A DNA stretch of 64,000 nt. Origin: Gracilariopsis chorda (Eukaryota > Rhodophyta > Florideophyceae > Gracilariales > Gracilariaceae). The notes under the pieces were generated by a model. The model did no database searches, was not told where the DNA came from, and saw only the letters and a list, made by a program, of their open reading frames with translations. Of this stretch, positions 3,653 through 38,769 are shown piece by piece (the stretch's first letter is position 1; each line of letters opens with the position of its first letter). The DNA lies in the NCBI GenBank assembly GCA_003194525.1, contig NBIV01000139.1, positions 62,001 through 126,000 on the forward strand, read 5' to 3'. Made by a program: the position numbers and the translations under genes.

Positions 3653-3659
3653 TAGACGT

Positions 3660-4648: not shown

Positions 4649-4998
4649 TGAGATTATAGGTGTGCTCACTGTTCTTATAAGACGGTAAGACAGAAAGCGA
4701 TGGATCAGATCACCTCACCATCTTGGAGGATGGGAAAAAAGCGTCTTGCCTTCTCAACATCTCTAATGATAGTGACATGGCCTGCTAAAAATGCCACGTG
4801 CATTGCCACGTACATTGCTGCGTGAATCTAGCCTAGTCTAGTAGCGTTTTCTTCCCTTTACTATAAAAATGAGAGAACAGAGTGCAACCCCGGTCTGTTC
4901 TCAACCAACTTCACTCTAAATTCTCTAAATTGTGTTTAAGCAAAGAAATATTTCTTTTCTGGCCATATATAGCTATAGATACAGGCACACCTTTTTCA
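4649..4998. repeat. Solo copia-type LTR
   Basis: A 350-bp sequence starts TGAGATTATAGGTGTGC and ends GGCACACCTTTTTCA, so its ends form an imperfect inverted repeat (GGTGTGCC-like / GGCACACC). It aligns with the 3' LTR of the copia relic at 15981-16902: shared blocks include AAGCGATGGA, TGACATGGCCT, GAGAGAACAG and a shared run near the end (TAGCTATRG). No clear flanking duplication is visible, so it is probably old. Confidence 0.7.
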
Positions 4999-5480
4999 TA
5001 AATGTACTATTTTACAATATTCCAGAGTTATCCTTGGATAATCGTAGATTGTTACTGTTTGCAATTAAATCATTCGGCACTCAAAGAATTGAAAAAATTG
5101 TTTGGTACTGATTATGCGTTGCTACCCAATACTTATAAGAGATAAAAAGAATATTCCTTCTGATCCATCTTTGGTGTAATGCAGCAAAAGGGTTTTGCGT
5201 GCTGTGACAGAGCCAAACATTAGTTGATGGACAAGAGAAAGCAGCCTTCGGCTGCGGGCGGCGCTGTGGGCTGCGGTGGAGGAGTGATAAAAAGGGGTGC
5301 GAAGAAAAAGAGTGGAGAAAGCAAAAGCAGAAAAGCAAGTAGTTTAATTCAATGGATGAAGAAAGCAAGAAATATGATTCGGGTTGTGAAGGGGGGCAGA
5401 CCTGTATGGCTTCAGGCAGCATTGGGTTGGGGATGGTCACAGTCATGGGATGAGTTGTGTGCACATTCCCGGATGTAAGC
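4999..5480. other. No gene seen
   Basis: Short frames exist on both strands. The plus-strand ORF near 5224 is Lys/Gly-rich low complexity. Nothing here is recognisable; the Helitron's 3' terminus probably falls near 5480. Confidence 0.4.
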
Positions 5481-5559
5481 TACGGCTCATACAGGAGCAG
5501 CACATGGTCGCTTCTTCGAATGCGCGTCAATGCGACATACAACTAACTGGCGTACAAGA

Positions 5560-7139: not shown

Positions 7140-7650
7140 TTCTCTGTGTATGTGCCTTGTTGGTATAGTGTGACAACCAGACGTCGTAGCTCGGAGGGCG
7201 TGCTGTAGATCTGCACTGCTTTTTGAGATACAATATCAAACTCGGATCTGTCCGCTAGCAGTCCGCTTGCAATCGCAGTTTCACGATACCTTTCATACTG
7301 CTGTTTGTTGAACGTCCTTGCGTCTTCATAAGAGCTTGAGCCGAGATTCATGAGCAGCAAGCGCAGACCAAAGAGCTCAATGTCGGACGGTGAAACACCT
7401 CTGATCCTTGCGACGCACTGCTTGTCTTCTGTGCGCTGTACCACGTGCATGGGCGCACTGCAGTCGTCTGTGGGCACCTGAGTGCTGTCTCCGTCGTATT
7501 GGTTAATAATGCGGGCTGGAAGCGTGCGATACAATCGTACTTTTCAAATTACGAAAAGCAATCAAGGTGGGCGTATGCTTCGGGTCTTGTAAAGTATCTC
7601 TCCAACGTAGACGGTGGCGATGCGGAATGGATTTGATTTGGACATCTGAT
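7127..7650 (-). pseudogene. Helitron linker between Rep and helicase
   Basis: The 135-codon frame from 7534 contains VARIRGVSPSDIELFGLRLL, SSYEDARTFNKQQYERYRET and AIASGLLADRSEFD. These match the conserved Helitron segment (SPxxxERFxLRLLL, SFEDLRTxxGxxYxTFKEA, GLLxDDxEW) located between Rep and helicase. The segment 7562-7650 is a different frame of the same region. The upstream part of the gene resumes at 8448, beyond a solo LTR. Confidence 0.75.
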
Positions 7651-8447
7651 TGAAGTGCAATGCCCTCAGAGAGGGAATCTTGGTACTTGGTTGATTTCCC
7701 GAATGTTTCGGTAATGTATTCATTGCATGAACCACGAACACTAATAGAGGATTTGACATGTGGGACACGGAAGAGTCAATTGGCGGCTGGCCACAGTAGT
7801 GGGCATGAACCACCAAAGTGGAGAAATTTAGTTAATTCAATTTATTGTTTTTACACCCATTTCTGGGATGGTTAGTACTTAGTGCGCGGGCGGGTTGCCG
7901 TCGCACCAGTAAACCTTCCCCAACAAGGGACCCCAACCTGGTGAATTGGCTCTAGACCTCACCGCCTTTGCGTGTTCTCTACTCCTCTTTGGAGGGAAGC
8001 ACCGTCGCATACGGGAAGTTTAACCTCCTTGCCTATCTAAATGACGCGAGTTTTCGGATTGTTATTCCAGCTTTCTTGGTGTTCGCCTTCTATAAGGTTT
8101 ATCTACCGGCACTGCCGTTAGTCTTCGTCACGACACTCGTGACTCAGCTCCCCCCTTATTTTTCCCTTTACGGGATGGCTTTCCCGCTCCCCACGGCTCG
8201 TTTTCGCACGTGCCACTAACGTGGAAACCTCACCTCTGTAGAGGACGAACACCCCCATACACCGCTCCAGCGGATACTGGATTCTTCCCTCAACCTCCCT
8301 GCGCAAGTCGCGACGGGTGGCCTCGGCCTTACAACCCGACATAGTCGTGCCACTCCTGGGAGGGCTCTACCCAACTGGGCTCACCTCTAACGAGAAAAGA
8401 TCCCGAACGTCTTTCGGTGCACTCCCGCTTCCGGGCATTGCACTACA
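7651..8447 (+). repeat. Solo LTR of the 24.4-35.9 kb gypsy family
   Basis: This is a 797-bp LTR beginning TGAAGTGCAATGCC and ending GGCATTGCACTACA. It is the same family as the LTRs at 24425-25221 and 35156-35952 but lies in the opposite orientation. It is bounded by a perfect 5-bp duplication CTGAT (7646-7650 and 8448-8452). It lies inside the Helitron gene. The expected origin is LTR-LTR recombination of a full element. Confidence 0.93.
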
Positions 8448-10200
8448 CTGATCAGAAAAATTCATTCTCCTTCCAAGTGGATGGCCAGTCGCTCTAATCT
8501 TAGTACGATGTAAACAAGTCGAAACTCGAAACTTCTCCAAGCTGCGTTGACGGCGCCCACCATACGTGCTCGCATGTATGCACGAATGTCGTTCTGCACC
8601 TCCGGCTCTTTTTGCTGCTCGTTCTGCGTGCCTGTCTCATTAGCACCACTGACATTTAGCACCACCTCCTGAGCTTTTGGCTGCTGAAACGGGTTCTACA
8701 TCATAGAAGCCACTGCGCCCCCTTCTTACGTGCGTTCTACATTGATATGAGAGCGGTACTTTTTGGTCAGAGTTGGGTTGTGCGGCACAATCTTGAGGTC
8801 ATGTTGCCTTCTTCTGCGGTAAAACACGCGATTCTATCCTTCTTCAATGTACATCTCCGTCAGAATCATGTTGCGGTTGTATCCAAACTTGCACCGCCCA
8901 GCGCGACTCCTGCAATAGGAGGAGTGGTGGTGCCTGTGCATGGAACGAATGAGTCCACGCAACGCGTCGTCTTCTCCTGGAAGGGGAAGTTCTTCACGAA
9001 TGAGCTTGTCGATCACATCAGCGTCTTCAATCACGCCTCCTTGAAGCCACACTAGCATGTGCTGATGAGGCACATTACGTTCTTGAGACTTTAGCTTTGA
9101 TGAAAGCCCCAAGCACTTGATTCCAATTAGGTGCTCTGAGTTCTTCTCCTAGTCCTTCATGAAGCCGTTTGCGTACTGTTTTTACACCCTTGCAATCAGA
9201 TCCGGTCGTTGAAACGGTTGAGGGCGATTACTCTGTGCCGTAAATGCTCTCCGATTGGTAGTGTCCATACCAAGGCGTTGGATGTCCTCTCGCCAGATGT
9301 TCATGGTGATTGTAATGAAAAGAGCAGGCGATTGTCTCCGCACTACGATCTCCTGTACATCCATGTGCTTGTTCTTTCCATATGCTGCTGAATTGACCAA
9401 GTCATCACGCAGAAATATGCGTCCCATTTGTGCGAACTGCGATGGTGACACATGAGCTGTTTGCTGTTGTGCTTGCTGGATCTATTGCTCTTGTGCAATA
9501 CTTGTCGGTTTTTTCCCCGCAGGAATTATAGTCGAATTTCCTCAATGTTTTTGTGTGTGCGGAGCATCCACATCTATATCAATGGTCCACTGTTTAGAAG
9601 GATGTCGTCTGGTACAGATGTCGCTTCCCGTTTTCAGCCCGGGTGAGCTTGCAGAGCTTCTACTCGTTGACGCTGAGACCTGAATTTTGCTGTGTGCAGT
9701 TCCATGCATCCAGAAACAGGCCGATCCCAAACGGTTCGAGGTGATCAACGTACGGTACAGAAGAGGGAAAGTGCCCTTCACTGCCAACTTGGATGTCGGT
9801 TTTAGAATTAGGTACCGCACTTGCGCATTGTTTGCGGGATTGAAAGTAGCCCCTGCTCTGGCAGCGGCAGCAATCGTCACTGAAGCGTGCCTTTTGGATA
9901 CGGTTCCTTCTACGAAGCGCGGTACTTCAGACTTTACTCGATACAGGCCAATCAGATCAAGGAAGAGCGTACTCATCATTGTTGGCACCCAAACAGAAAC
10001 ATCTTCAGTGAGAGGGCCAGCACCTTTAGGAGGAGCACGGAATGCAGCACGTTTGGTTCCTTCGTATCCACGTACGACTACTCCTTGTTCCGCTGCCTGC
10101 ACGATGATATCCACGGCGGTCTCCGCATTTTGTTGTTGTTCTTGTTGTTGCGTGCTAATCATGGATCGGTGACATTCGTGCACGACTTCTGGTTCGGCTG
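8448..10200 (-). pseudogene. Helitron Rep (HUH) domain and upstream part, broken
   Basis: About 9345: SPALFITITMNIWREDIQ matches the Rep motif PDLFITxTCNPxWxEI. About 9080: NVPHQHMLVWLQ is the HUH motif (H-x-H). About 8930-8860: HHHSSYCRSRAGRCKFGYN matches the Cys/His segment. About 8790: IVPHNPTLTKKYRSHINVE matches VVPHNPxLLxKYxxHINVE. About 8590: DIRAYMRARMVGAVNAAWRS matches the DEIKNYLDxRYxxxxEAxWR block. The YxxxY catalytic helix expected after HINVE is not seen; only a stop-rich stretch lies there. The 213-codon frame 10183-9542 has no recognised domain but is in the correct strand and place to be N-terminal to Rep. Confidence 0.75.
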
Positions 10201-20715: not shown

Positions 20716-20740
20716 GGGCCGTTCTATGAGTGTCTAAATT
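20716..20740 (+). repeat. Left terminal inverted repeat of the Harbinger
   Basis: GGGCCGTTCTATGAG and the next nine bases pair with the right end at 38745-38769 with one mismatch. It is preceded by the TAA target duplication at 20713-20715. Confidence 0.88.
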
Positions 20741-20872
20741 TTAACGGATGTAAACTTGTTACGCAGTCAACTTCAAGCTTTCACCCAGGGCTTCACTGTA
20801 TGAGTTTTTTCTTAATGCCAGCCCCATACCCTCCCAGAGACAATTCATTACCTTTACGCTCACTCTTGCACA

Positions 20873-22123
20873 ATGCCAACGTTTGAACGGATAACTCAAC
20901 GCCAATGTCTGCAAATTCGAAAGCAAAGTCACATACCAATACATCGCGCTCTATTAACCAAGAAAGATCCTTCCAGAGCAATGAGTTTGTTCTTAAGCTC
21001 ATCAGCTATACAAAAAGAAAGCGTGCTTACCGTTATTTGTATTATTCTTCTCACCATTGCAGTGGACCTATGTCCACTTATACATTTCAAAAGCCCTGTT
21101 GTTCCGAAACCACAATTCCACTTTGAAGTTCATATGGCTACTCTTTCTAGTCAATTGTTTCGCCGAATGTACCATCTCTCAGAAAAAGAGTTCAATATCC
21201 TTTCGAAACTTCTCTAAGTCAGAATCTTGAGAATGTGAAGAAAACGGAGCTATATTGCTGCCTCTTTATCCTTATCCGTTAAGCTATGTTTGAAATTACG
21301 GCTCTTAGCAGATGCAAGCTATCTAGACCTCGGATGGGCATACGGTGTTGCTGAGTGTACCGCATATCATGTGTTTTATAAAACTCTTCACGTTCTAAAT
21401 GAAGTGCTTCCCCACACTCGATTTCCGATCTCTTTTGAAGAGTGTTTTGCAAGCGCACATATGTTCGAGAAACGTCACGGAAGTCCACTTGATGGTTTAG
21501 TTGCATTCTTGGATGGTGTGGCGATCGAAACTATTCGGCCTAAACTTCGAGAAGCGTCAGATCCTCGTAATTACTACAATCGCAAAGGGGTTTTTGCAAT
21601 CTGTGTGCAGGCAGCAGTTCAAACAAACTACAAATTCTGCTTTGTTTTGGCGCGACATGCAGGTGGAATGCATGATTCTACAGGTTTTAATGCCACTTCG
21701 TTGTACGATTTGTTAAGTGGTCCAGAGCTACCATCTTGGGCAGCTGTTGATGCTGATGAGGCGTATACAAATGAGCACAGAAATCTAATGCCGTATCCAG
21801 GACGACATCTAAGTACAAAAGAAGATTCTTTCTACGCGTATCATTCTTTATCCAGAGTTTGTTGCGAGCAGGCGTTCGGGATGCTTGTATGCCAATTTGG
21901 CATCTTTTGGTAAGCTCTTTGCTACTCGTTGCCAACTTCTACACTTATCTCTATGGTCACGGGAAAAATCCACAACTTCATCATCGATAATGGAGACAGC
22001 TCGTTGTTTGAACTCGTACCACATCATGATGATAATCGTGTGACTGGTACGCCTACCATACACTTTCAGGATGACTGTCACACAGAAGGAGAAAACAGAC
22101 GGTCGAGAAACAGACAAAGATAA
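20873..22123 (+). pseudogene. PIF/Harbinger DDE transposase, three in-frame stops
   Basis: One frame runs from ATG 20873 to 22123 with only three stops (21215-21217, 21236-21238, 21911-21913) and no frameshift, so decay is recent. MYHLSEKEFNILSKLL is followed by LRLLADASYLDLGWAYGVAE, the helix-turn-helix region. The catalytic domain shows the first Asp in VAFLDGVAIE (Asp codon 21512-21514), YYNRKGVFAICVQAAV, HAGGMHDSTGF, a second Asp in AAVDADEAY, and the Glu in VCCEQAFGMLVCQFGIFW. GKIHNFIIDNG follows, as in intact relatives (KLHNFLIDxG). The family performs cut-and-paste transposition with TWA targets, matching the TAA duplications here. It converges on the HSA-SANT gene. Confidence 0.88.
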
Positions 22124-22292
22124 ACGACGTCGCGGCGCAATGAACTTGCAGAAAAGCTTCATAGGCTAGGATACCTGCGAACAAGACGTTTTATGTGACA
22201 AGACGTTCTATTAAACCTCCTATTTGAGTTCCAATGAGTTCTGCACCTATAACCGATCGGGATGTTAAAATGTCACGTCCTAAACCAACAGC

Positions 22293-24424
22293 TCATCTTA
22301 TAGCTATACCCCTACTAGCCGGTTTCGAAATGGTAGCTCGAGCTACTCCTATTGATGCGCCCCTCCACGCCTCTCTTGATGGAAATCTAGATGCGCCTTT
22401 TGACGCACCTCTGATCCTTGCAGCATTCCCAGCTCTAATGCCTCTCGTGCCATGCACGATACCACGATTCACTGTTGTGCTATTGTTTCCTTTTGATGAA
22501 CCATCTCGTCCCTGATTAGTCCTACCTGTGCCGGCACTGGGATCTACTGGGACTCCGCTGTGCTGGCAGTTCCCCGACAAAGCGCCAGTGGATTACCCCT
22601 GCCGGTCCTAGGTTGAAGCGATGATGACACATACGAAGAATGGAGAGCTTTAGAATGGTTGTCACCTCCTCCGTAGGGTAATACATGTTCGAGACGGGAT
22701 TGTGAACCAGTCAAGAGCGGGGAGTCCCCACAGAATAAACCCTCGCATCTCCGTTCTGGAGCATGGAGGCGGTGGCCATTGATTTTACGACGCCTTGAGA
22801 TTCGGCAATCTTTCCAGAACTTGCCTTCAATGTGCTCCCGCGTTAGACGGAGGCATTCCCCAGGACTTGGGAAGATCAGCTGTAGAATGTGAATACTTCG
22901 TTGCATTCTGCACTGATGAGGTAGGTACACGAGTCATCACAATAGCGTGGTTGACGGATCTTGTCTGGCTTTGGCCATCTTTCCCTTTCTAACACTGAAA
23001 AACTTTGTCCACTAGTTCCCAGGTTCACATGGTTTAAACAAGAAAACTTTGTAGTTTGAAGGGTTCGATTCCCTGCGAGATATGTTAAGAGGCGGCAGAA
23101 CATTTCCAACCTCTTGGAGACGATGGGAAGTCGACTCATTCTTCGTTTTCAAATCAACTATCTTCATTTTCGGTGTAAAAACTCGAGAGCCGGCATCATT
23201 GCGAGTCTGAGCGTCAGAACGCGACGATGCTTGAAGATTCATGTTGCGAGCTCCTCTGCCTGGCCCCTTTTGGAAGAAATTTGGCTCTCCACTTTTCATT
23301 GGAGTTGGAAGTTCATCTTGATAAGAAGCACCAATAGCGTTTGAAATCCCACCCCTGTACACGCTAAGAGTCAGATATCCTCTCTAGGAGGATCCATGAA
23401 AGGCCATTGACGCCTTTGAACGGTCTGAGGTCTTGTCTCGGTCGTTTTCGTTCCGGGCTTATGATGCTCAGGAATATTGAAGCACCTAAGAACTGCGGTC
23501 AGGGTGGCATAAGCTCTGGCCTCATCATCCCGTTCATCTTAGATATCGCTTCAGATATTAACTTCTGTTGGGATGAATGCAACTCAAGTCCCGTCTGTCC
23601 GCTATTTGACACAGTCTTTGTACGTTAGAGCACTGAAGGCAGCTTGCAAAGCGGAATGATGCCTCTGCCCAATTTAACGATCGCTTATATTTGCCCTTGG
23701 AACCGGTGGACCGCTCTAGATATCCTTTACAAGAACATTGAGAAGCCTATCTACACAATGCCAAACTGGCCTGAATCGACGAACTACCATTCGTAAGAGT
23801 GGATCCGAAGCCAGAGAGGCAGCCACGAGAAACATATTTTTGTTACACGCCGAGGCAGCAGAGATCAAATCCTCATCCTCCTCCTTGGTACAGCCATCGT
23901 TTACTCCGCTACGTTCGTTAGATATGCTGCTTCCATAGTTTGCAATTGAACACTTAATTTCAGGAACCGTAAACCGTTTCGTGTTGTTTTTTGGCCTGTT
24001 TTTGAATAGACCCATACTCGAATGATGTGGATCAGATCCTAAACTTGCACTAGCTACACTCATTAAGATATTCGACCTACAAGCAGAATCCGCTCTGCTC
24101 TTCTTCGAAGCTGATTGGATTGAGATGGATAGTGGCTTGGGTTTCCTTTTGATGTCCTTGAACAGGAAGTGCTTTACCGTTCTTGACAGCTCTCGAGAAT
24201 TCCTCGACCTGCACTTTTCCCTGAACGGATGCTGAGTGGTTCCAATTGCCATTAGTTTGTGGTTTGGACAAACATGGCGATTCCCTGGAAAGGCGCGTAC
24301 GATCCTCTTTCCTAATCTTTGTAGACTATCGATTCATTGAAAAGCGCTTCTCTACCGTGCCAGAATTCGTGTTACGGTCTTTGATTAAATGTTCGATATT
24401 TACAAATGACATGTTACACCTTTC
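22293..24424 (-). pseudogene. HSA-SANT (EAF1/VID21-like) gene, C-terminal part
   Basis: This is the downstream part of the minus-strand gene whose upstream part is at 35953-38464, separated by the gypsy insertion. The frame from 24252 has about 120 Ser/Lys-rich residues, then a SANT/Myb-like segment at residues 121-172 (CTKEEDEDLISAASACNKNM, then VRRFRPVWHCVDRLLNV). The consensus in EAF1/VID21/EP400-type SANT domains is WTxEED, then RxPxxCxxRW. The conserved first Trp is Cys here. Later frames include TVQRRQWPFMDPPREDI (about 23400) and an Arg/Gly-rich tail ending RGIAIR at 22293, typical of a disordered C-terminus. Frameshifts and stops make it non-functional. Assignment to EAF1 and not to another HSA-SANT protein is inference. 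Confidence 0.6.
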
Positions 24425-25221
24425 TGTAGTGCAATGCCCGGAAGCGGGAGCGCACTAAAAGACGTTCAGGATCTTTCCTCGTTAGAGGTGAGCCCAGTTG
24501 GGTAGAGCCCTCCCAGGAGTGGCACGACTATGTCGGGTTGTAAGGCCGAGGCCACCCGTCGCGACTTGCGCAGGGAGGTTGAGGCAAGAATCGGGCATCC
24601 ACAGGAGCGGTGTATGGGAGTGGTCGTCCTCTACAGAGGTGAGGTTTTCACGTTAGTGGCACGCGCGAACACGAGCCGTGGGTAGTGGGAAAGCCACCCT
24701 GTAAAGGGAAAAATAAGGGGGGAGCTGAGTCACGAGTGTCATGACGAAGACTAACAGCAGTGCCGGTAAATAAACCTTATACAAGACTAACACCAAGAAA
24801 GCTGGAATAACAATCCGAATACTCGGGTCCTTTAGATAGGAAAGGGGGTTAGACTTCCCTTATGCGACGGTGCTTCCCTCCAAAGAGGAGTAGAGAACAC
24901 GCGAAGGCGGTGAGGTCTAGAGCCAATTCCCCAGGTTGGGGTCCCTTGTTGGGGAAGGTTTACTGGTGCGACGGCAACCCACCGGCGCACTAAGTTCTAA
25001 CCATCCCAGAAATGGGTGTAAAAACAATAAATAGAATTAACTAAGTTACTCCACTTTGGTGGTTCATGCCCACTACTGTGGCCAACCGCCAATTGACTCT
25101 TCCGTGTCCCACGTGTCAAATCCACTATTAGTGGTCGTAGTTCATGCAATTAATACATTACCGAAACATTCGGGAAATCAACCAAGTACCAGGAATCCCT
25201 CTTTGAGGGCATTGCACTTCA
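24425..25221 (-). repeat. 3' LTR of the gypsy element
   Basis: 797 bp, TG...CA ends. A polypurine tract in the element's sense (plus-strand CCCCCTCCTTA, about 25224-25235) lies directly against its inner edge, which fixes the transcription direction as minus. Confidence 0.92.
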
Positions 25222-25235
25222 TATCCCCCTCCTTA

Positions 25236-27113
25236 GTCGAGAAAACAACCGCAAACGCGGGCGAATCCCAGCGGAAGATGGGTGATAAAAGTCCAAACCT
25301 CCCCGGGTCACCGGGTCAAGCCTCTGCCTCAGAGAAACAACCTCCTGCAAAAGCAGCAAACCAGCCTTCCACAAGTGCCCATTCCTCCTGTTCCTGCTCA
25401 ACTCAGTCAGATCACGCCCTTTCGAAGGGGAATATGAACAAAAACCACAACCAGCCTCCAAGACCGACTTCAGTCGGGAACTTCACAACTGGCTTCCGGT
25501 CGGTACCCTTGCCACAAGGGAGGCGAACTCCAGGACGGCCGGCCAACATTGGCGCAGCTTCCCAGCATGGGTTCCACCTTCCGCCAGCGCTGGCTCCTTC
25601 CAAACTAATCCCGGCGGCGACTTGGCATTCTTATAACGCCCTTGTAGGATTAGATCCGATGAATCGGAGTAACGCCTCTCGGCTCCGGCTTGCGCCGTGG
25701 TTCCATCCCATCGCTGCCCTCAACGAGGATTTAATTACGGCTTATGCGGATGGATCCGGTACTTTGCCAGGGAATCTACCCATCCTCATCACCTCGTTGT
25801 GGGACTGGCGGCATCGAGTCGCCATCCCGGTGCACCATATCCGAAGAAACTAGGGAGAATCCGCGATTGCGGCTCATGCAGCGCTGGTGCGGATTGCATA
25901 TCAGTACCAGAGCCGGGCGCCTTTCGAATTCCCGGTGCCTACCGGCTTTGGCTTCGACGTCAGCCTATTCCGCTCGCGCGGTGAAATCGGTTACGGCAAA
26001 CGCCTGGCCAGCCTCGAAACCCTCGCGTCTAGGAACTTTCCCGCTGCGTGGCAAGAAGCCCTGTGTTGGGAACGAACTATACTTCGGGTTGAATTCCGGT
26101 ACTTTTCCTGGCAGTCCCGGTCCAAATTCATCCAAAACGTCATCCGTTATGAACGGCGCTGGCGATCCATATTCGGGTACTTTGTCCCGTATCAAAACGT
26201 GGAGATTGAGCGGATTGCTACGCCTCACAGACACGGTCGGTATGTCGCACTCCCGAGTGGTGGAGGTTCCTTGAGGCCTGCCGGGGTTGCTACGTTGAAC
26301 TCCCGCCAGCACCCACCAGCACTCACGTACCTCGGTTCATTTTTGATTCAGAATCCCCGGTCGGGGCTTTGGTCTGTAATCGTAACCGAGTGGGCTGCCC
26401 GCACTGCGGCGTATATCCTCGCTGAGGTTTATGACCAGTATCGACTGTGGTTCATCCAACCGCGTGTGCGGGCCACTATTCGCAATCTGGACCTCAGCGT
26501 CCCCCTAGGGTGTATTGCCAATAATGACGAAGTACTCCAATTACTTGGTTTCATCGACAGTATCGACTGGCGCGAGGTCCCACTGGAACAGAGCGGTCGG
26601 CTTGACGGAGGCGGTGGTGGTACCGGTGGTTCGGGTCTTGGTAGAAACACCGCCCTTGCGCGGGATCTCATCTACTTCGATCCTTGGGAGTTCCGGGAGA
26701 TTTCCTCCGAGGAGGCGAGGGAACTCCGCGACGCACCGCAGCACGTGCCGGACGGCCACCCGATTGGATACGTCGATTCCAACGATTACTACCGCGCGTA
26801 TAGCGGGGATGACCCGGTGGTCGATAACGAACCCCAAGAGACGGGGGACATGGAACTAGACGTTGCCGACATGGTCGTAGACGAATCCCCGGAGGGGGTG
26901 CCTCCAGTTCCCAGTCCTCCGACGGCGAGCGCCGGGCCTTCACTCCCCAGCAGGGGTACAGTAAATGAAAGCGATATCATTGCCCGCTTCCTCCGCGGAG
27001 CCGGTGTAAGCAGTGCCGAGGTTTCGGGTGACGCCACCGCCATGGCAGATGCCTTGGCTTACCGCCTTGCGGGTGGTCACGCCCCGGACGATGGGGAGCG
27101 GTCGAACCTCTAA
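25236..27113 (+). CDS. Antisense accessory ORF of the gypsy element
   Basis: Between the polypurine tract of the 3' LTR and the end of pol, the plus strand (antisense to gag-pol) is open almost throughout, with about one interruption, and its open frame reaches back into the LTR. The N-terminal third is Pro/Ser/Gln-rich. The middle is globular and aromatic-rich (RYERRWRSIFGYFVPYQNVE). A Gly-rich linker (GGGGGTGGSGLG) and an acidic C-terminal region with VADMVVDESPEG follow. I recognise no family. Codon-like GC structure and length exceed what chance would give. Antisense genes in the same place are known in plant Grande/Ogre-type gypsy elements, with unknown function. Confidence 0.6.
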
Positions 27114-27300
27114 TGCAGTATCCTGATCTGTTTCCCTGGCTTAGCCAGTAATGTAGCTTAGCATCAGACAGGAGCGCGAGACTCCTGAGTAAACTTCCCC
27201 GTTTAGAACGGCGTTTTCTCTTTCATTACCGTCCTCGACGGAGTCCATACAAAAGGGGATGTACTCCTTCTTTCCTACCTTCCCCGGCTTCGCGGCATTG

Positions 27301-30300
27301 TTATCTCACTTGGGCGTTGCACAGCGTAGCTGGATTTGCAGTACCGGCGCTGCGGTGATATTGGACCACCTTCGAACGAGGGAGGTGTTCGATGGGTTCC
27401 ATGGTCTCCCAGCTTGGGTCATATCCGTACCAACGGACGCGGTATCTTACGATGCCTTCCTGATTCCAGGTGTGCCCGACGAATCGGTCAAGCACAAACT
27501 CTTGTTTGTATACCTGCCGGCCCTGCCGTGTTATGGTGATCTCGCTTGTCGGAGTTTGCCCGATGGACGGGATATTTCCACTCAGAGGTGTGTCAGGATG
27601 CAACGTGCCGGGTTCGCTCGGTGGATGCGGCGCAGAGTGCGGAAAAATATCGCTGAAGAGGGTGTCTTCGTGGAACGGTTGCTGCGTACCGTGGTAATTG
27701 GGTCGTACCACTAGTTTGCGGGGGTCCTTCGTCCCATGTTGACGGTAGTCCTGTCGAACCACGAGCTTGTGGGCATGTTGCCGCTTTGGCGTAGTTGAGG
27801 AGGTCACTCCCTGGTGGGGCTTTCCGCGTCGCGCGGTGATTGGTGCGGGGCGCACAATTTCCATGCGTTCACGTGACTCCCACGGCATGTGGCTCTGAAC
27901 CGCCTCCTTGCGTTCCGCCTCCCTTGGATTGGACCTTACACTGTCCGGCTGAGCCGTGCACTGCTGTGTTGGCACTCGGTATCTGGCGGTTACTTCCGGT
28001 GCTCCGGTGTGTTGCCTCAAACTCCCTGATGGGGCGTGGACAGCTGGCGCCCTGGACACCCTGCTCGGGGACTTTGCCTCTAATTGAGGTGTGATGTCTT
28101 CCTCAAGAGGTGCATCACCCGGGATGACTGGTGTAACCCTGGCGACGACGCCAGATTTTTCCGAGACGCTCCGTATATTATTCCAATTGCACGGAGACTT
28201 TGGCACTTCTATCTCCGAAGTTATAACAACATTTCCGTTATCAACCGTTCTCAAGTCCAGGGCTGTAGAGCCAGGGACTTGAGTTGCAAGATGTGCATTC
28301 CTGTCTTCTTCCCTCAAGAGGATCTTTTTACTTTCCAGCGTTGCTGGTTTTCCAAGGCGTGCGTTGCCTGCTACCAGCGGTGTGGATGGTGCTGAGGAAT
28401 CCGTTTTGGCGGGAAATTCCGTCGACGACGGTTCTGCGACTATACCCTGGTGAGGGGTCTGCGAAACGATATCGCTATCCTGATTCAGGGAATTGCCCTG
28501 ATTCAGGGGTACGGACTGCGATGTCGGCCCACTCTCCCGTATCATACGGTGTAGCTGCGTCGTTTTGGAACCCTTTGTGGGGGATTGCGAGGCTTCATCG
28601 ACCTTCCGTGTTTCACGGCTCAAATCCCGTTGCGACGGTAATAAATTTCCAGCGTGGGGATAAGTCCCCTCCCCCTCCTTACACGGAGAAAGGGGAGTAA
28701 TAGTAGGATATCCCACATGGCGGGTGTAAATGCACGCCGAAGGGGCGGTAGTTTTAGGAGTAGAGAAAGGTCCGTTTGGACCTGAACGATCCGGCCGAGC
28801 CGGGGGTTCCGACAAAGTCGGTAAATCTGAGAGGCCCCGAGTAGGGTGTGGTAGAGTACTCGGTCTATCTATTCCCGCGGTTTCCAGCGTTGCTGAGTCC
28901 GTAGAGACGGGTTTTGCTGTTTCCAGGACGACCTCAGACGAGGGAGGAGGGGCAGGTACAACACGATCGCGGGAAATCCGCTTGTGCGTCTTGCCTATTT
29001 CCACTACGACATTGTCGGAGTTAAGGGATACCACTTTAAACGGTCCATCCGCCACAGGCGAAAGCTTGTGACGCTTCTCCCGTTCCGGGTTATAATATTC
29101 CTTACGTATAAAGACGTAGGTATTAGCCCGTACGCGGGGAGCATTATCTCGTAAACAAGTGTCGAAATCCCGCTTGTACGCGGCTTGCGCGCGTTCCATA
29201 GACTTCCGCGCTGTGGGGACCAGTTTAGTAAGCCATTGCTTCCATTCCTGGCGGTAGCGACCCACAGATGGGAAATTGTCCAAGGTGGCTTGAGATTCTA
29301 ACGCCACAGGCGGGGGTGGATGAGATAGAACCAATTAGAACGGTGACACTGCTGTAGTCTGGTGAACTTGTGTATTGTATGCAAATGTTAAAGAATCTGC
29401 ATACTAGTCCCAAGTTTTTGGGGTGATCAGCAACCTAGGAACGGAGAGAGGCCAGCAAAGTCCAGTTGAACCGTTCGACTTGCCTATTACACTGGGGATG
29501 GTAGGTAGTCGTGAACAAGTTCTTCACGTCTAGGATGCGAAAAACATCCTGAAAGAACTTGGACGCAAACTGCCGTCCATTATCGGAGAGCACCTCCACA
29601 GGAGGACCGTAGACAAAAATTTAGTGCGTTACCAGAGCCTGGGCCACCGTGAAAGCGGTTATCCTCCGAAGAGGGACAGTCTGAAAAGGCTTTGAAAAGC
29701 GATCGGTGATCACAAGTAAGAACTTGTTGGCTCTCTTTGTATTGAGGAGAGGTCCGAGAATATTGATTGCCATAAACTCGAGAGGCGCCTTAGCAGGGAA
29801 TAACTTCATTTTCTTCTCGTTCCTGCGGAGCTTCACCCGGTTTTCCGAGCATTCGGTACAAAACCGCACAGTTGCGTAGCAATCAACCGCCATGACGGGC
29901 CAGTAAAAAACCCTTTGCAGGGTGAGGTAGAGCTTCCTCTCACATACGTGGCCACCGAGCTTCGAATAGTGCGAGAGATGTAACACCCGCGACTGCAGGG
30001 AATGAGGTACCACAATCTGTGGACGAGCTTTGCCCAACCAAACGCGGTAGCCTTTATCGTTCACCTCAAACGGGAGGTCTTCGCCACCGTTTAAACGGGC
30101 ACGAATCCTCATACAGAAGGGTTACCGAATTGTTCTTGGATCAATTCTTCTGGTGAAACCGGTACAAAACTTCCCAGTAAGGGGTTCTCAGGGGTCTCGT
30201 GGGATGCGAGTAAGTTGTCGAAATCAGCATCTTCATCCCAGTCTTCTGGCCATTCCTCGAACTTCCACCGCGGGTCATCCGGTTCTTCAGCCATGAAGCA

Positions 30301-33300
30301 TGGAATGTCGTCATCCTCCGTTGGGAGTGCTTCCCCATTTGTGGGTAAACGCGACAAAGCTTCGGCCTGGGTGTTGAGCGCCCCCTTTTTATATATGACT
30401 TGGAAGTCATAATCCGCAAGGCGGAGTGTCCAGCGCATAAGGCGGCCCGAGGGATCGGATATGTTCACTAACCACCTCAACGAGGAATGATCCGTGTATA
30501 CGGTAAACTGAACTCCCATAAGATAGGGGCGTAGGGTGGAAAGCGCCCACACGACGGCGAGACACTCTTTTTTCGACATAGAGTAATTCCGCTCGTGGAC
30601 ATTGAGCGAGCGTGACCAATAACCAATTGGCCTTCGGTCCCTCTCTGGGGTAGTTTGGAAAAGAGCCCAACCAGCTTGGTTGTCGCTCGAGTCCGTGTCC
30701 ACGGAGTACGGGAGTCCCAGTTTGGGTAAAGATAGGATAGGTGCTGACGTGACAGCCTCCTTTAAGGAGTTAAACGATTCCGATTGCTCGGGCGTGAATT
30801 GTCCCAATTGTGGGGGATTTTCTTTCCGTGACAACGCGTTCAACGGTGCCGCGATATCCGAAAAGTTCGGGATAAACCGTCGGTAGACGTTGACCAGCCC
30901 TGAAAAGGAGCGGAGTTCCGTTTGAGTGCGGGGTTCCTTAGCCTCAACGAGGGACTTGACCGAGCTTTCTCGATCATTAACCATCCCGGACGGATGATAT
31001 GTCCCAGATACTTGACAGTATCTGTAAAGAACTCGCACTTCCTCAACTTGAGGGTAGTTCCCGCATCGCGGGGCACGGTCAGGACGTCCCTGACATGGGT
31101 GAGAGGGTCGTTCAAATTATTAGAGAAGATGATAATATCATCCAGGTAGACCAGGCAGCTACGCCACTTGAAGCGGTTCAATAGAATATCTATTGCACGC
31201 TGAAAGGTGGCGGGAGCGTTGGTCAAACTAGACGGCATCCGCTTGAAGCGGTACGATCCTGCGTGGCAGGTGAACGCGGTCTTATCACGATTCTCCTGTC
31301 TAAAAGGGACCTGCCAATAACCCCATTTGGCGTCCAAAGCCGTGAGCACGGTAGCGTCTCCAAGGGAGTCGATGCACTCGTCCATACGAGGGATGGGATA
31401 TGTGTCCCTAAAAGTCACGGCATTGAGCCGGCGATAGTCAACAGAGAACCTCCAGGTTCCGTTGGCCTTCAAAACCAGTACAACTGGGGATGCCCAGGGT
31501 GATTGAGTGGGCTCTATCACACCTGCGGGGAGCATGTTGTCCACTTGGGACTGCCCCTCTTCCCAAGCGTTCGGTCCTGCCCTGTAAGGGAGTTGTGCCA
31601 TCGGACGTGCACCCGGTAACAAATCTATCTGGTGTTCCGTAGCATTAATCTTGCCGAGCGAGCCATCCCACATCGTGGTAAATTGCATTCCCGTAGCATT
31701 GCACGGAGGTTATCGTGGTGTGACTCTGGCACATGGCCGAGGTCTATATCTTCAAGTGCCTTTATGGGGTCCACTCGGTCAGAACGCGCTGTAACATGGT
31801 CCTGTGATACAGGTGTGGCCGTCGGTTCCGAGTTATTCGGGGTGTTTGACGATAAAACAACGGTTTCCTCTCCCTCCTTTAACGATAGTTCGTCAGTGGT
31901 GAGGGTGGCTTCCTCAGAAGAGGCGGCAATTCCGAGAACATTAGCGGTCGTCATTTTCGTCCGGAGCATCCCAAGGGGGTGTGGAGTGACGCTTCCAATT
32001 ACTTGGTTCCTTACCAGATACCGGGGGCGTTGGCCGAGATTGGCAACGAGTATCCGGAAAGGAGCATCCAAGGTAACGTGAACAATTCCGTTTGCCATCG
32101 CAAGCCGGTATTTCTCGTATAACGAGGACAGAGGTTGAATAACCCAAAGACCATGTTGACGGCAATTGACTTGCACCCAGACTTGGGACTCAGGTGGTAT
32201 AGAAACCGAGGCTGCTACTCTAAGTTTGATGGACTCGCAAGACGCGGGCGGTGGTTCTTGCACAGCAGGTAGTGGGAATGGCTTCTGCGAAGCACGCTTC
32301 AGCGGGCGACGGACGATCGGGACTGATGATCCGTCGTGGTATTCCACACGCCTAAGGCGGGGCCTGATTGCGTCGACAAATCTGTTGCAGAAATCACATC
32401 CCAGTATGACTGGAGTGGCCAATGACCAACAAACAATAAAGTCGAGCTTCACCACGGAGGTGCCCAACCGCACGACTACGTCGACGGTACCCACCATTTT
32501 AAACGGATTGTTGTTTGCATCTGCGACGTCAGGAACCGTTTCGGAACGGATACGAGACCGCACCTGCGGGGGTACCAATGATTCCATGATGGTGTTGGGG
32601 CTTGCACCTGTGTCCAGGACTGTTAGAAATCTCACCATAAAATGGGTGTCAAGGCAAAGGTCGGCGTAAACCTTGTAGTTGCGCTTGGCCATGACCAAGA
32701 TTCTATGTGGGATCCGGGGGCTTTTACTCCGTATCCACGGGCGACGCAGCACAGAAAGGTGTGCAGAGTCCGCGTCTGCGGTGTCCTTCCTTGAAAGGAT
32801 TTCCACCAGGGAGTGAGGCGGCGAGGCCTCGGGCGTCAACAGCCTCATCTCTGAGGATGCCTCTCCCAAAGGGGAGACTCCCTCAATTAGTTTTCCTGGG
32901 AGGTTCCCGCCGTAGGCAGTAGTCCAGGATCCTCGACCAAGAGAGCTTCGTTCCGGGGGCCCTGGTTTTTATCCGCATAAGCGGTGGTTGCGTTGGACAT
33001 TTGCGCGACTTCCCGATTCGGGTTAATTGAAGCTAGCCGCGCACGCGGGATATGTGGCAAGGCATGCGAGAAGTCCGTTTTAGCACGGAGGTAGGAAGCC
33101 GTCGGAACGGAAGGTTTCTCCTCTGGAGTGAGGGCCTCGTAATTTGCCACCACCTTGGCCATATCCTTCTGTGAGCAAAGACACTGAGGGGATGTATGGC
33201 CATGGATGTAGCAAAGGTGGCAAATTAGAGCCAAGACGGCGACGCGCCGGTTAATATCCCGAGCATTGGAGAAGCGTACCGCCGGGCGGGTGTCATTCCA

Positions 33301-35125
33301 TGCAGGCTGTTGATAACGGGATTGGCCGTTCATAAACGGGACTCGTGACTGCTGAACTCGATTGTTCTCCACGTACAATACGGGGTTATCTTGCGCCGTT
33401 TCGAACGTGTCCTCCGTCGTTGAAGGTAAGTCCGTGGTTTGTATAGACACACCATCTCCCTGTGCAAAATGCACGGTGTCGTATCCCTGTTGAGGGGTTC
33501 TATTCGCAAAAGTGAGGGCGATGAGGAGTCACTCTCCAGCACCAACGCCTTGGCGGGCCTAGACCGAGGATTCGGAGTCCTTGTATGAAGTGCTTCCCCC
33601 TCCGCTTGAGCGTGCTAAACAAGCTCGAGGTAGGTGAGTCTCCGCTTGTTCTCGCGGTAACTAGTGACAAGACTCCGGATTGCCGGGTCAAGTCCATCGA
33701 TGAACATCGTACAGCGTTCCCCTGCGGGGTATACATTCCCACAACGGTGGAAGGCCTTGTTAAGACGCACCGAGTAATCGGTTTCACACTCGGCTGAGCG
33801 CTGACGGGTATCTCGCAAAGCGAGGATTGCTCCCTGAATGGCGGTATCGGTGGCATAGGAGCGCAATAAATATTGCAACGATTCCGGCCAGCAGATTACT
33901 CCTCCCTCTGAGGCACGAGATGATCCTCTGACAGAGGTGTACTGGTCCTCTGCGACTCCCCATAATAAATACGGTAATGCCAAATAGGCTTGTCCTTCGT
34001 TCATTCCGAGGATATCGGCTTCCGCTACAAAGCAGGAAAGGAAGTCCAACACCATAATTGGGTCTTCTCTAGTAAAATACTGATTACGCAGTGAGAGTTG
34101 CATACGTTTTATGCACTCTTTCACGATACCCGTACCCGGGGTGTACGTCTCAAAGAGGAATCTTCGAGCAGGTTGTACTGGTAGGACAGTAGTTTCCAAG
34201 AAAACGGGTTCGTCGGTTTTATTTCCCTGAGGCCAGGGTGTCTTCTCCCCTTGCTGCTGGTCCGAATTCCACCTTAGATGGAGGATGACCGCTTAGAGCG
34301 AGAAGATCGGCCTCGTTTCTCGTCCTCCGAATCGGACTCCGAGGAACTAGAACCATGTGACCCGTTTCGGGATGAATCCGATGATGTCATAGAATCAGAA
34401 TCCGAGTGATCTCGTTTGTGTTTCCGCTTATAGCGGTGCTTCTTTCTTCCAGCATGCTGGTCGTGGTGTGACGCAGCTGGTGCCGGATCATCCGCGGACG
34501 GTTTATCCATGAGGATAAACTGCGCTAACGTCTCCAGACTGGCACGTACTCGATCAAATCGAGAGTCAACTCCTTCTATGAAGGTGGCGGGTTGCCTCAA
34601 ACTCTCTAACATACAGTTGACATCGGACCGTAAGATACGGAGATCCTCTGCTACCACCTTTGTAGGGGTGTCCATCACCACCTCACGGAGGGCTTGTAAT
34701 TTCCCGACAAGGGTGTCGTGGGCCGTCCACAAAGCGTGAACCTGAGATTCCAGGGAATTCCCCTGGAGGGTGTTATCGCCCGTCAGACGGTGTTCAGGTG
34801 CGGCGGCGGCCACGGCCGGAGCCGGATGAGCACCATCCACGGCATTCGACAACGGGGTGGACGTGGAGTTCCGGGGTTCCCGGAGTGAGTTTGGAGTCCT
34901 AGAAGAGGAACCCCCAGCATGGCTGGATTTAGCCCTAGTCGGGATCCGAGAAACGAACCGAACTTCGGGGTTATCTGCACCATTTGTGGGAGTGACTGCG
35001 CGTAGTCGCAGGCTCCGCAGAGGAGGGCTTTCTCGACATGAGGGCCAACCGTTACGACGGGAAAACAACGGAAATTCCGGAAAACAAACAAAACAAACAA
35101 AACCTCGAAAGAGGGAACCAAACAC
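27301..35125 (-). CDS. gag-pol region of the gypsy element (fossil)
   Basis: Parts in minus-strand order: gag with a Ser/Asp-rich tail (about 35.1-34.3 kb) and a capsid-like part (about 34.2-33.6 kb). A CCHC knuckle, CHLCYIHGHTSPQCLC, lies at about 33.2 kb. The aspartic protease has LDTGASPNTI (about 32.6 kb). RT has YLDDIIIFS (about 31.1 kb), and RNase H has the VDTDSSDNQAGWAL block (about 30.7 kb). Integrase has an HHCC segment (LSHYSKLGG ... CTECSENR) and DRFSKPFQTVPL (about 30.0-29.6 kb). A long Pro/Ser-rich C-terminal extension ends in a chromodomain at about 27.5-27.3 kb (VRYRVRWYGYDPSWETMEPI). Chromodomains in this position are known to guide integration to modified histones. The region is broken in several places and reads as a fossil. 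Confidence 0.9.
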
Positions 35126-35141
35126 CAGAACCGATTCTAAG

Positions 35142-35155
35142 TCAGGAGACCACTT
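35142..35155 (-). other. Candidate primer-binding site of the gypsy element
   Basis: Just inside the 5' LTR, the minus strand reads TGGTCTCCTGACTT starting three bases from the LTR edge. This fits a site complementary to a tRNA 3' end (…GTCAGGAGA-CCA). Which tRNA is not known. Confidence 0.5.
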
Positions 35156-35952
35156 TGTAGTGCAATGCCCGGAAGCGGGAGTGCACCAAAATACGTTCGG
35201 GATCTTTCCTCGTTAGAGGTGAGCCCATTTGGGTAGAGCCTTCCCAGGAGTGGCACGACTATGTCGGGTTGTAAGGCCGAGGCCACCCGTCGCGACTTGC
35301 GCAGGGGGGTCGAGGCAAGAATCGGGTATCCGCAGGAGCGGTTTATGGGAGTGATCGTCCTCTAGAGAGGTGAGGTTTCCACGTTAGTGGCACGCGCGAA
35401 CACGAGCCGTGGGTAGCGGGAAAGCCACCCCGTAAAGGGAAAAATAAGGGGGGAGCTGAGTCACGAGTGTTGTGACGAAGACTAGCAGCAGTGCCGGTAA
35501 ATAAACCTTATACAAGGCGAACACCAAGAAAGCTGGAATAACAATCCGAATACTCGGGTCTTTTAGATAGGAAAGGGGATTAGACTTCCCGTATGCGACG
35601 GTGCTTCTCTCCAAAGAGGAGTAGAGAACACGCGAAGGCGGTGAGGTCTAGAGCCTATTCCCCAGGTTGGGGTCCCTTGGTGGGGAAGTTTTACTGGTGC
35701 GACGGCAACCTGCCTGCGCACTAAGTACTAACCATCCCAGAAACGGGTGTAAAAACAATAAATCGAATTAACTAAATAACTCCACTTTGGTGGTTCATGC
35801 CCACTACTGTGGCCAGCCACCAATTGACTCTTCCGTGTCCCACGTGGCAAATCCACTATTAGTTGTCGTAGTTCATGCAATGACTACATTACCGAAACAT
35901 TCGGGAAATCAACCAAGTACCAGGGATTCCTCTTTGAGGGCATTGCACTTCA
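35156..35952 (-). repeat. 5' LTR of the gypsy element
   Basis: 797 bp, same length and ends as the LTR at 24425-25221, about 5 percent different by eye. It is the promoter-bearing LTR for minus-strand transcription. Confidence 0.92.
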
Positions 35953-38464
35953 CCTTCCTGACATATTGCCCTTCCTACATTATCCTCCTTAACCCCATTC
36001 TCCACCGGAGAGAGAATTGTGAATTTTGGATCATTGTTTGCATCCGTACACAGAGTGGATACTTTTGATCCACTCTGTGTTTTCAAGTATACCGTCTGAT
36101 CTGCTCTATACACATCAGGGTCTATTCCTTGGGCTCTAAAAAATATCTTCAATGCTAGCTGCTGCATCGCTGGCCAATCTTTGACCCTCTTGTACATCTG
36201 GCACGTATTCAGCCTCCGTAGATCTTATTGTCTCTTCATCATCAACAACTTCATCCCAGAATGTAGGGTCACTCACGTCTAAATCGTTGACGTCTTTCTC
36301 CAACGCTGTGTTCTAGTTTTTTTCCGAAAAATACTTCTGCGGATCAATACACGGAGAAAGATGTAAGTCCTCTAGTGGCAAATCAGCCTGAGTTTGTAAT
36401 GTACGCAAGTCGTTTGGATCCCTGTTTTCTTCTGCTTCTGCAATGGCCATAGTTGTTTCATCATCAGAACCATACGTGTGGCCTTCGGCAGAGTTACTGG
36501 CAGGACTCGAGAACTCAGGGTCACAATCATCTTCTTTGGTGTTGATAGGACTGGGAACATACACTGTGACGCAAAAGATAGATGTAGACGTTTCTCGTCA
36601 ACTATTTTCTTCAGGACTACCTCCTGGAAGAAGAGCACCATCTGACCTATACCCGGTATGGCTCTCAACGCTTCCGTCACCAAAGCATACATGCTTTACC
36701 ACATCGCAGGCGTCGTTATGATGATTAGCTGAAGAAGGGGCTCGGGGCGTAGATGCAAGCTCTGATGAAAGCACTTCTGTTTTTAAACAAGGTCCATGAG
36801 TTTAAATCGCCTTTCCCTCTCTTGCTAGGCCTTAGTATTTAAGGTGGCTGTGTAATCAGCAATCTCCCTAAATTGCCTCCAAAACTTCGAGACATCCTTT
36901 GCCATAGAAGTTGCATGTTTTCGAATTCGTTGCAATTCTTCTACTTGAGCTTTAGTGTCACAATGTCTCCGCTGATTGTGGTACTTTACAACCATCTTCG
37001 CGATCTTCCTCGCCATTTGTACTTTCCCCTTGCGTTCTCCGATGAATTCGGTAGCCAACCGGACTGCTTCTTCCAGAATATAATGAACTTCAGATCTTTG
37101 CAGGGAACATTTGGAATAAGCCATGCCCATTAATTTGCATTACAAAGAATTCGCCGCTTCCTAGAGAGAATATGCAATTATGCAGCTCTGTTTGACCCAA
37201 GAGATGCTTTGAGGTTGTCCACAACTTTTTCAGACAACGCATTTTCTTCAGCACTAACGACTTGATCCAACATATTCTTCACACGAACTATCGCTTCCAG
37301 CGCAGACATAGTAGAGCCAGCTTGTGCGTCCATGACTTCAAATTGTAGCCGTCACTTTTTCAGTTGTTGTAATTCAGCTTGAACATTTCGCTGCTGCTTT
37401 AAGGCCGATACCAGCCCATCTAACCCAACAAAATTAACATTCTGCACATCTTTCTTTGGTCTCTTCTGTTCGTCACGAAGAAACTCATATCCTTCAAACC
37501 CGTATGAGTTGACCCCAAACCCCACCCCTTCCTCCAGTTGAGCATCACTCTCCAATGCACGGATAACACATGGTTTCAAAATAGGTGGTAGCTCCAAAAA
37601 GCGGTACCTGTACATAGTATATGCTTTGCCGTCGGCAAAACTTTCGAACGCTTCTGGATCTCCCTGCCCTGACGCCTCATGTTTTGCTAAGCACTGACCA
37701 TATACGCTTTTAAATTCTGCAAAATTTCTCTTTAACGCACCACCTTCACGAATATAAAGACGCCCAGGATTGAGCAGAAATATATCATCGGATGCGATAC
37801 CTTCGGAAAGAGTTGTGTTTGCAGCAGGTTTGAAGGAAATGACATTAAATAACGGCGCGGTTTGTTCGCTCCATGGATCTTCATTCTGCCCATCAAGCTT
37901 CTCTCTGGTTAAGCATTCCAACAGTTTGGTTCTTGCTGCAGTCATACGTAGTTCTGCAAAGACATGGAGCAGTCTACAATACTCTGCGGCTTCAAAAGTC
38001 GCGTTTCAACTTTCGCTCGGAGAGGAGTTGTTATAAAAGAATTGTAATGATGTTCGTCCCACGAAAACGTCATTTCCAATCATTTTCGGTGCATCTTTTT
38101 GAATGGAATCAATTTTCTCTCTCCCGGATTCAGATTTATTTATACGAACTTTCGTATATGATAAGTCTTGAATGTGAGTAGAAAAACTGTTAGAGCTGGG
38201 TACTTTGTTTTGCATTACCGGGAAAATATGCGATGCGCTTATTTTCCGCTTTGTTATTTTTATGGATGTAATTTTGCGCTTTGTTTCTATCTTTTCGTTA
38301 ATGGCTCCGCTAACTTTGAGCATTTTCAACGCTTTTTTACATTTTGAGTTGCGAAATATGTAAGCATCAAGTTGATTGCAAGCTTTATGGAGCGTTTTTG
38401 GAGCTGGTTGCGTATGAGGTCCAACTTCATGCGTACTTGACGGCTGGGGATCAAAGTCTGTCAT
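35953..38464 (-). pseudogene. HSA-domain (EAF1/VID21-like) gene, N-terminal part
   Basis: Starts at ATG 38464, about 300 bp inside the Harbinger's right end. One frame continues 38464 to about 37180 with in-frame TGA stops at about 38003-38005 and 37350-37352. An uncharacterised N-terminal region is followed by a Gln/Leu-rich helix. At 37130-36825 an HSA domain is clear: VHYILEEAVRLATEFIGERK, then ARKIAKMVVKYHNQRR, LQRIRKHATSMAKDVSKFW and RQFREIADY. An acidic region follows (GSDDETTMAIAEAEENRD, then ADLPLEDLHL), like the segment after HSA in SWR1/EAF1 proteins. The known HSA role is binding actin-related proteins and actin in NuA4/SWR1/INO80 complexes. No Snf2 ATPase motif is seen, and a SANT domain follows beyond the insertion, so EAF1/VID21 fits better than SWR1. 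Frameshifts are also present. Confidence 0.7.
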
Positions 38465-38621
38465 GTTTGTACTAGCAGTTTTTTGTCATTCTCAAAGTGC
38501 GGCAAGAAAGAGATCATAGTTATTCAAACCACGCAGTTCTACTAGGTTTCTCATTTGGACTTGTTGAGTGGAAGCTTGTTTTTGACTGAATGCAACTGTG
38601 AAGTGTATTCTTTCAACCTTC

Positions 38622-38676
38622 AGATTTCGTTTAATGTAGGAAGCAACAATCGTGCTCCCTACATTAAACGAAATCT
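38622..38676. repeat. Perfect 19-bp palindrome near Harbinger right end
   Basis: Arms 38622-38640 (AGATTTCGTTTAATGTAGG) and 38658-38676 are exact inverse complements with a 17-base spacer. It lies between the right terminal repeat and the start of the HSA-SANT gene, in the presumed promoter. It could be a transposase or partner binding site, or a hairpin. No equivalent is seen at the left end. Confidence 0.8.
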
Positions 38677-38744
38677 TGAAGCATTTGGAGGCAACGTGTA
38701 AATGCCTGATTGCTAGAGAATGGTTTTCCAGTTTCGTTTCGTTT

Positions 38745-38769
38745 CATTTAGAAACTCATAGAACGGCCC
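38745..38769 (-). repeat. Right terminal inverted repeat of the Harbinger
   Basis: Ends CTCATAGAACGGCCC, the inverse complement of the left terminus, and is followed by the TAA duplication at 38770-38772. Confidence 0.88.

Follow-up and report, generated by a model that had tools for sequence, protein, structure and literature searches.

Probable capture and decay of the host SWR1 gene in a PIF/Harbinger transposon family of the red alga Gracilariopsis chorda

The 64,000-nucleotide stretch of the Gracilariopsis chorda genome analysed here (hereafter the window; contig NBIV01000139.1, positions 62,001 to 126,000) contains a PIF/Harbinger transposon at window positions 20716-38769, whose terminal repeats match each other and are flanked by TAA duplications. 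A preliminary description of this element had recognized a transposase and one large convergent gene with an HSA and a SANT domain, regarded as a resident scaffold partner or, alternatively, as a captured host EAF1 gene. We found instead that the apparent large gene is made up of a native second gene, termed open reading frame 2 (ORF2), a captured piece of the host SWR1 gene and a nested Ty3/gypsy retrotransposon. This red-algal family very probably carries a captured and since decayed copy of SWR1, and represents one case of repeated capture of host genes by Harbingers with two native genes. We observed the element, the donor gene, a joint common to the copies, the decay of the captured piece and other classes of cargo in related elements.

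A search for HSA domains in the genome gave 14 matches: 12 copies of the element, a gene on contig C223 and a weaker match on C9 (26 bits). The C223 gene is an uninterrupted frame of 2534 amino acids (aa), the first methionine being the eighth residue, with HSA (E 3.8e-17), SNF2 (E 4.9e-88) and Helicase_C (E 2.2e-25) domains. According to Pfam and to the sequences of the Protein Data Bank (PDB), it displays the pattern of SWR1, SRCAP and EP400, i.e. an HSA domain together with an SNF2 ATPase and Helicase_C split by a long insertion. Among the chains of solved structures, those closest by sequence to its catalytic region are SRCAP (E 1.8e-207) and SWR1 (E 2.4e-194). The frame begins at the same residue as its relatives P0011 (79.6%), P0012 (57.1%) and P0013 from Agarophyton chilense (56.8%). 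From its first methionine it is colinear with SWR1-type proteins, the alignment with the Agarophyton chilense protein spanning host aa 8-2414 of 2534.

The gene in element copy C24 aligns with this C223 gene over 6632 columns with 96.2% identity, corresponding to host-strand positions 2310-8933 (aa 168-2376). The captured segment therefore comprises 6.62 kilobases (kb) of the host SWR1 gene, from inside the HSA domain to near the C terminus, and lies between the transposase and ORF2. Its 3' end falls at donor base 8933 in all four copies tested (C24, C139, C352 and C8), and its 5' joint is common to the copies, so the family was probably founded by a single capture. We consider two separate captures unlikely, given that 11 of the 12 copies have the 5' joint at base 2310 and the remaining one, C146, only 5 bases later (2315). 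Elsewhere in the genome, a SWR1-like stretch that is more divergent than the captured copies (C219:46685-47255; 68-69%) is perhaps an earlier capture or a pseudogene. Of the EAF1 alternative, the capture of a host gene is thus retained and the donor corrected to SWR1. As for copies lacking the gene, the outcome is mixed: all 12 HSA-bearing copies found contain the capture, so that it is a family-wide transduplication and no accident of one copy; related Harbingers without SWR1 do exist, and two subfamilies were amplified while already carrying stop codons.

At the ends of the window element, the 15-mer GGGCCGTTCTATGAG is present as exact copies at 20716 (+) and 38755-38769 (-). These belong to terminal inverted repeats (TIRs) at 20716..20739 (+) and 38746..38769 (-), with exact ends, inverted arms of 25 nt (96% complementary) and a TAA/TAA target duplication. 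When up to three mismatches to GGGCCGTTCTATGAG were allowed, the window still gave just these two matches, but shuffled windows contained 1.43 matches on average and two were reached in 48 of 100 shuffles. As such loose matches are common in shuffled sequence, the evidence for the TIRs is carried by their exactness, by the 25-nt arms and by the genome-wide count, i.e. 22 exact matches versus 0 for the reversed control. The exact 15-mer was not found on contig C223. In four copies read at both ends, the 3-bp duplications are TAA, TAA, TCA and TTA. The earlier view that a single PIF/Harbinger element lies between the two TIRs is upheld, and so is the nature of its transposase (20921..22186, +), which matches DDE_Tnp_4 (PF13359) with E 3.1e-13 (E 3.3e-26 in the sister element C258) and is decayed in the window copy (one TGA and three TAA internal stops). 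ORF2, at 37181..38488 (-) by transfer of its coordinates from copy C24, is also decayed here (two TGA). Adjoining the right end, a subterminal hairpin at 38622..38676 (24-nt arms, 96% complementary), also found in C24, C352 and C8, is a possible binding site for ORF2 or the transposase.

The captured gene forms three pieces in the window copy. The first (35951..37084, -; 89.3% DNA identity to host-strand 2310-3444) begins within the HSA domain, at host frame aa 168, and extends into the acidic region. The second (24159..24424, -; 90.2% to host-strand 3437-3702) runs up to an internal deletion, and the third (22217..24163, -; 88.9% to host-strand 6993-8933) extends from the SANT region as far as aa 2376 of the host frame. 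At the deletion joint (24159..24163), where about 3.3 kb were lost, the two flanking host matches overlap by 5 bases. The first and second pieces are separated by a Ty3/gypsy long terminal repeat (LTR) retrotransposon of 11.5 kb (24425..35952, -), which sits inside the captured gene, with 797-bp LTRs at 24425-25221 and 35156-35952 (94.5% identical) and flanks reading CTTTC and CCTTC. The HSA domain noticed earlier is genuine (37139-36828, -; PF07529, E 5.6e-10; 39.8 bits, the cut-off being 23). The SANT domain near 23889-23728 (-) stands as a weak match to PF13921 only, its 13.5 bits lying under the cut-off of 22.9. The SANT region of the C223 gene (18.2 bits, E 0.003) is also under this cut-off, and PF13921 is among the precomputed domains of related SWR1 proteins such as P0012.

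We then compared the window copy with three further copies having both exact ends, namely C24 (9815 bp), C352 (9812 bp) and C8 (20.9 kb), the last with a gypsy-like insertion of its own. Among themselves these three copies are about 97% alike; compared with the window copy, they show 87-89% identity in the long pieces they have in common with it. None has the Ty3/gypsy insertion at the place corresponding to that in the window; a relative of this retrotransposon, 67-75% alike in the matching pieces, is located in C8 elsewhere within the same captured gene. Where the window copy has its deletion, all three contain SNF2 ATPase sequence that a long insertion separates from Helicase_C (E 1.5e-24 in C352). 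The deletion of about 3.3 kb thus took out the SNF2 ATPase and the helicase lobes. Since the longer copies hold an ATPase between them, the HSA and SANT domains are the two ends of a SWR1-type remodeller and not parts of an EAF1-type scaffold. EAF1/VID21, the NuA4 scaffold with HSA and SANT but no SNF2 ATPase, was rejected on this ground, the ATPase having been lost by deletion. Likewise, the SANT domain was discarded as evidence of a resident Myb/SANT partner, as it belongs to the SWR1 piece. The HSA-SANT architecture is therefore a deletion artefact of the window copy, derived from the wreck of a SWR1/SRCAP-type remodeller. In C24, C352 and C8 the SWR1 piece is also broken by stops and frame shifts, several of these disruptions being common to all three. 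Caution is needed when an HSA-SANT "scaffold" is read from a genome, as it may be the deletion wreck of a remodeller.

The resident second gene of these elements is ORF2, which encodes 431-436 aa in open copies and lies on the same strand as the captured piece, upstream of it. Searches of the genome gave at least 99 matches to ORF2 and at least 101 to the transposase, which are lower bounds because only the best candidates were scored, some copies yielding more than one match. With our own pairing rule, these matches form 67 convergent ORF2-transposase pairs, 9 of them with SWR1, and from this we conclude that ORF2 is the resident partner. Where ORF2 and the transposase are neighbours no more than 8 kb apart, they are convergent in 72 cases, divergent in 1 and on the same strand in 5. 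ORF2 has 10 relatives outside this genome, including one named Chondrus crispus protein. It gave no Pfam match, and no Myb/SANT domain was detected among 12 relatives at E <= 1. In addition, its predicted structure matched no PDB fold at E <= 0.001, the model being modest (mean predicted local distance difference test 71, predicted template-modelling score 0.40). None of the SWR1 copies with both ORF2 and transposase matches has both native genes open throughout.

Sister elements without SWR1 carry other host genes in the same gap between ORF2 and the transposase. We read the gaps of 11 of them. The C258 gap contains pieces of a protein kinase (Pkinase, E 1.8e-31) and of a DUF676 esterase (E 1e-22), and that of C41 a class I tRNA synthetase piece (E 1.4e-68; valyl type by our reading) with a glyoxalase/EF-hand. 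An ABC1 kinase piece (E 6.8e-15) lies in C28, a peptidyl-tRNA hydrolase in C70, a galactose-1-phosphate uridylyltransferase (GalT) with a RING domain in C142 (a close relative of C70), DUF3684 in C273 and leucine-rich repeats in C36. The kinase, tRNA synthetase, peptidyl-tRNA hydrolase and GalT matches each span part of their profile. No Pfam match was obtained in the scanned frames of C8 (343550 on), C156, C208 and other stretches, C23 being outside the scan. The C142 gap also has a piece of a DDE_1 transposase (870-1754 of the extracted stretch L077), perhaps a second nested transposon. The ends of the C41 gap are common with C36 and C208 while its middle is different, which suggests cargo replacement.

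Donors with open frames were located for several of these cargoes, as for SWR1. All are longer than the captured pieces, namely C108:57560 for the synthetase (997 aa; 91% over 363 aa), C11:435604 for the kinase (1011 aa; 94% over 183), C237:26709 for GalT (386 aa; 92% over 60) and C174:116086 for DUF3684 (1870 aa; 95% over 44). From the 67 pairs, 28 hold cargo from these five donors (SWR1 9, GalT 8, synthetase 5, kinase 5, DUF3684 1). Conversely, 28 of the 44 cargo matches lie inside pairs (SWR1 9/12, valyl-type synthetase 5/9, kinase 5/8, GalT 8/13, DUF3684 1/2), the remainder being unpairable. The gap is at least 3 kb long in 46 of the 67 pairs, including all 28 traced ones, and shorter than 100 bp, i.e. 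without cargo, in 4. By comparison of coordinates, the leucine-rich piece occurs in 5 further pairs; its best match outside pairs is on C112 (84%) and has a stop, which makes it a doubtful donor. The ABC1 piece occurs in 3 further pairs, one of them doubtful (22 kb apart), and has a donor-like frame of 607 aa (61%). The C258 element measures 8477 bp and has a perfect 16-bp TIR with a TTA duplication; its cargo is enclosed by the two native genes, each with an open frame (506 and 464 aa). Judged from these frames, at least one cargo-bearing two-gene Harbinger, C258, looks autonomous. For C28, no pair of TIR and duplication was found in the stretch scanned. Members of the size of miniature inverted-repeat transposable elements (MITEs) also seem to belong to the family (L004, L005).

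To follow the fate of the SWR1 piece, we built a tree from the captured segment of the 12 copies (several of them partial) and the host gene. Two clades branch near the host gene, clade A with C139, C195, C49, C302, C146 and C340, and clade B with C24, C46, C352 and C8 along with C121 and C294. Sites at which the host differs from every copy number 2 nonsynonymous (N) and 11 synonymous (S), a pattern that selection on the host gene would be expected to produce. Among changes private to one copy, the N:S ratio is 2.1-4.8 in 11 of the 12 copies and 12 in C24 (24 N, 2 S), where 2.78 is expected without constraint. C>T and G>A together account for 34-39% of the changes in every copy. Changes unique to the stem of C24, C46, C352 and C8 amount to 32 N, 11 S and 4 stops, and those unique to the stem of C139, C49 and C195 to 17 N, 7 S and 1 stop; missing data were allowed in these counts, provided that at least three and at least two copies, respectively, were present. 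For ORF2 and the transposase taken jointly, these two stems give 5 N and 7 S, versus 54 N or stop to 18 S for SWR1 (Fisher P = 0.036), the transposase count being thin on the second stem because C49 and C195 have no transposase in the data. The SWR1 piece was thus already broken when two subfamilies spread, with near-neutral change in this piece and less change in the native genes, which is the behaviour of a passenger. As far as substitution patterns can tell, the captured piece is most likely a passenger.

Several observations weigh against this reading. Differences common to all members of a clade with data number 3 N : 7 S in A and 2 N : 3 S in B, i.e. 5 N : 10 S in total, which departs from neutrality (P = 0.0013), so the earliest branches hint at constraint. 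This hint is not robust, because looser site definitions do not reproduce it: with at least two A copies and the host unused for the choice of sites, the count is 26 N or stop to 13 S (P = 0.16), and it becomes 50 to 21 (P = 0.23) when a single discordant copy is tolerated. Of the 39 sites in the former count, 29 have data from two A copies only, and the 10 with three or more give 4 N : 6 S. Moreover, clade A differs from the host by 7.0-11.0% and clade B by 3.0-4.5% (1.6 to 3.7 times more in A) despite the common joint, and we have no good explanation for this gap in rate. The path between the clades in the native genes is also short (8 sites), despite the unequal SWR1 divergence. Decay at CpG was rejected as the cause of the unequal branches, as CpG transitions affect 2.9-12.5% of CpG sites versus 3.0-11.1% changes elsewhere, the largest excess (1.8-fold) being in C294, a member of clade B. 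Gene conversion by the host gene may have refreshed the cargo but need not be invoked, since the native genes are equally close between the clades.

These early branches raise the question of whether the SWR1 piece initially served the element as a functional third gene, a remodeller opening the element's own or its target chromatin, which selection would have maintained up to the founders of clades A and B before it was lost. The synonymous excess of the whole-clade differences speaks for it, together with a capture that takes in the greater part of the gene, from HSA through the ATPase to SANT, the lack under the strict count of any stop common to a whole clade, and the chromatin genes described in transposons (SET in HarbingerS and TET/JBP in Harbinger; PMC12730594). 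We nevertheless consider such an early function unlikely: besides the looser counts, one stop is common to both A copies with data at its site, the two subfamilies were amplified with stops already present, and the other cargo frames scanned resemble truncated ordinary genes. A broader proposal, that autonomous Harbingers with a fixed cargo bay repeatedly load large host segments and that a near-complete SWR1 was once selected because it aided the element in chromatin, seems to us equally doubtful.

The captured piece might also act as nucleic acid, as a source of small or antisense RNA against the host SWR1, with less H2A.Z deposition and an easing of silencing as the outcome. The idea comes from work on Pack-type elements, and several copies of a 6.6-kb piece 96% identical to a single host gene would suit it; the cargoes of the sister elements have no common pathway, and we regard this role as very improbable. 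As to a resident EAF1-like HSA-SANT scaffold gene tying transposition to chromatin or actin-related proteins, the HSA domain and the weak SANT match within one element are what suggested it. With ATPase sequence in the longer copies, a donor that is SWR1 and ORF2 as the resident second gene, it is almost certainly incorrect.

The capture of a host gene that then decayed, which we favour, would have proceeded as follows. A PIF/Harbinger family would once have taken up 6.62 kb of the host SWR1 between its two convergent native genes, possibly by gap repair after excision or during replication. The element would then be mobilized by the transposase, acting in cis or in trans, and would carry the captured gene with it as a presumed passenger, each copy decaying after transposition. 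In the window copy, which is old and broken, the deletion of the ATPase and the gypsy insertion would have generated the apparent HSA-SANT gene. Outside the element, the window shows a sharp rise in guanine plus cytosine content at 58001-62000 (0.69, then 0.59), with a 9-base tandem array at 58669-58791.

The capture of genes by DNA transposons is most familiar from plants, and from elements without a working transposase, whereas here it concerns transposase-bearing elements. With 46 of 67 gaps of at least 3 kb and 28 with a findable donor, gene shuffling by such elements becomes testable in a compact genome. In a literature search that had Repbase Reports and most subscription papers outside its reach, we recognized no report of SWR1 in a Harbinger or of a cargo-bearing Harbinger in red algae. 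As in Pack-TYPE elements (plant Pack-MULE, Pack-CACTA and the Harbinger-PIF type), a TIR transposon contains pieces of host genes whose donors lie elsewhere. Here, the cargo attains 6.6 kb and has the transposase and ORF2 of the element itself as neighbours; in the 28 traced pairs it lies between these two convergent genes. According to a review (PMC6431247), most Pack-MULEs measure 1-2 kb and full-length genes are seldom captured. Pack-TYPE elements are non-autonomous by definition, and elements matching a transposase were classed apart in a survey (PMC8903248). The present elements would depart from this definition, as transposase and ORF2 flank the cargo and both frames are open in C258.

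The family shares with Nuwa and related PIF/Harbingers a DDE_Tnp_4 transposase, a second open reading frame, TIRs, 3-bp duplications and MITE-sized derivatives, and differs from them by an ORF2 without Myb/SANT detectable by Pfam or fold search and by a third, host-derived segment. Chromatin enzymes inside DNA transposons have been reported, with SET or TET/JBP genes in Harbingers (HarbingerS and the TET/JBP Harbingers of rusts) and SNF2 in Inton/Enton (PMC12730594, PMC3627910). Such genes are reported as part of transposon families in several lineages, while here it is a decayed copy of the host SWR1 in one subfamily. Finally, Turmoil-1 of C. elegans is similar in that coding pieces of the host were transduplicated into a DNA transposon, and differs in that these pieces are reported to be located within the inverted terminal repeats (PMC2572040).

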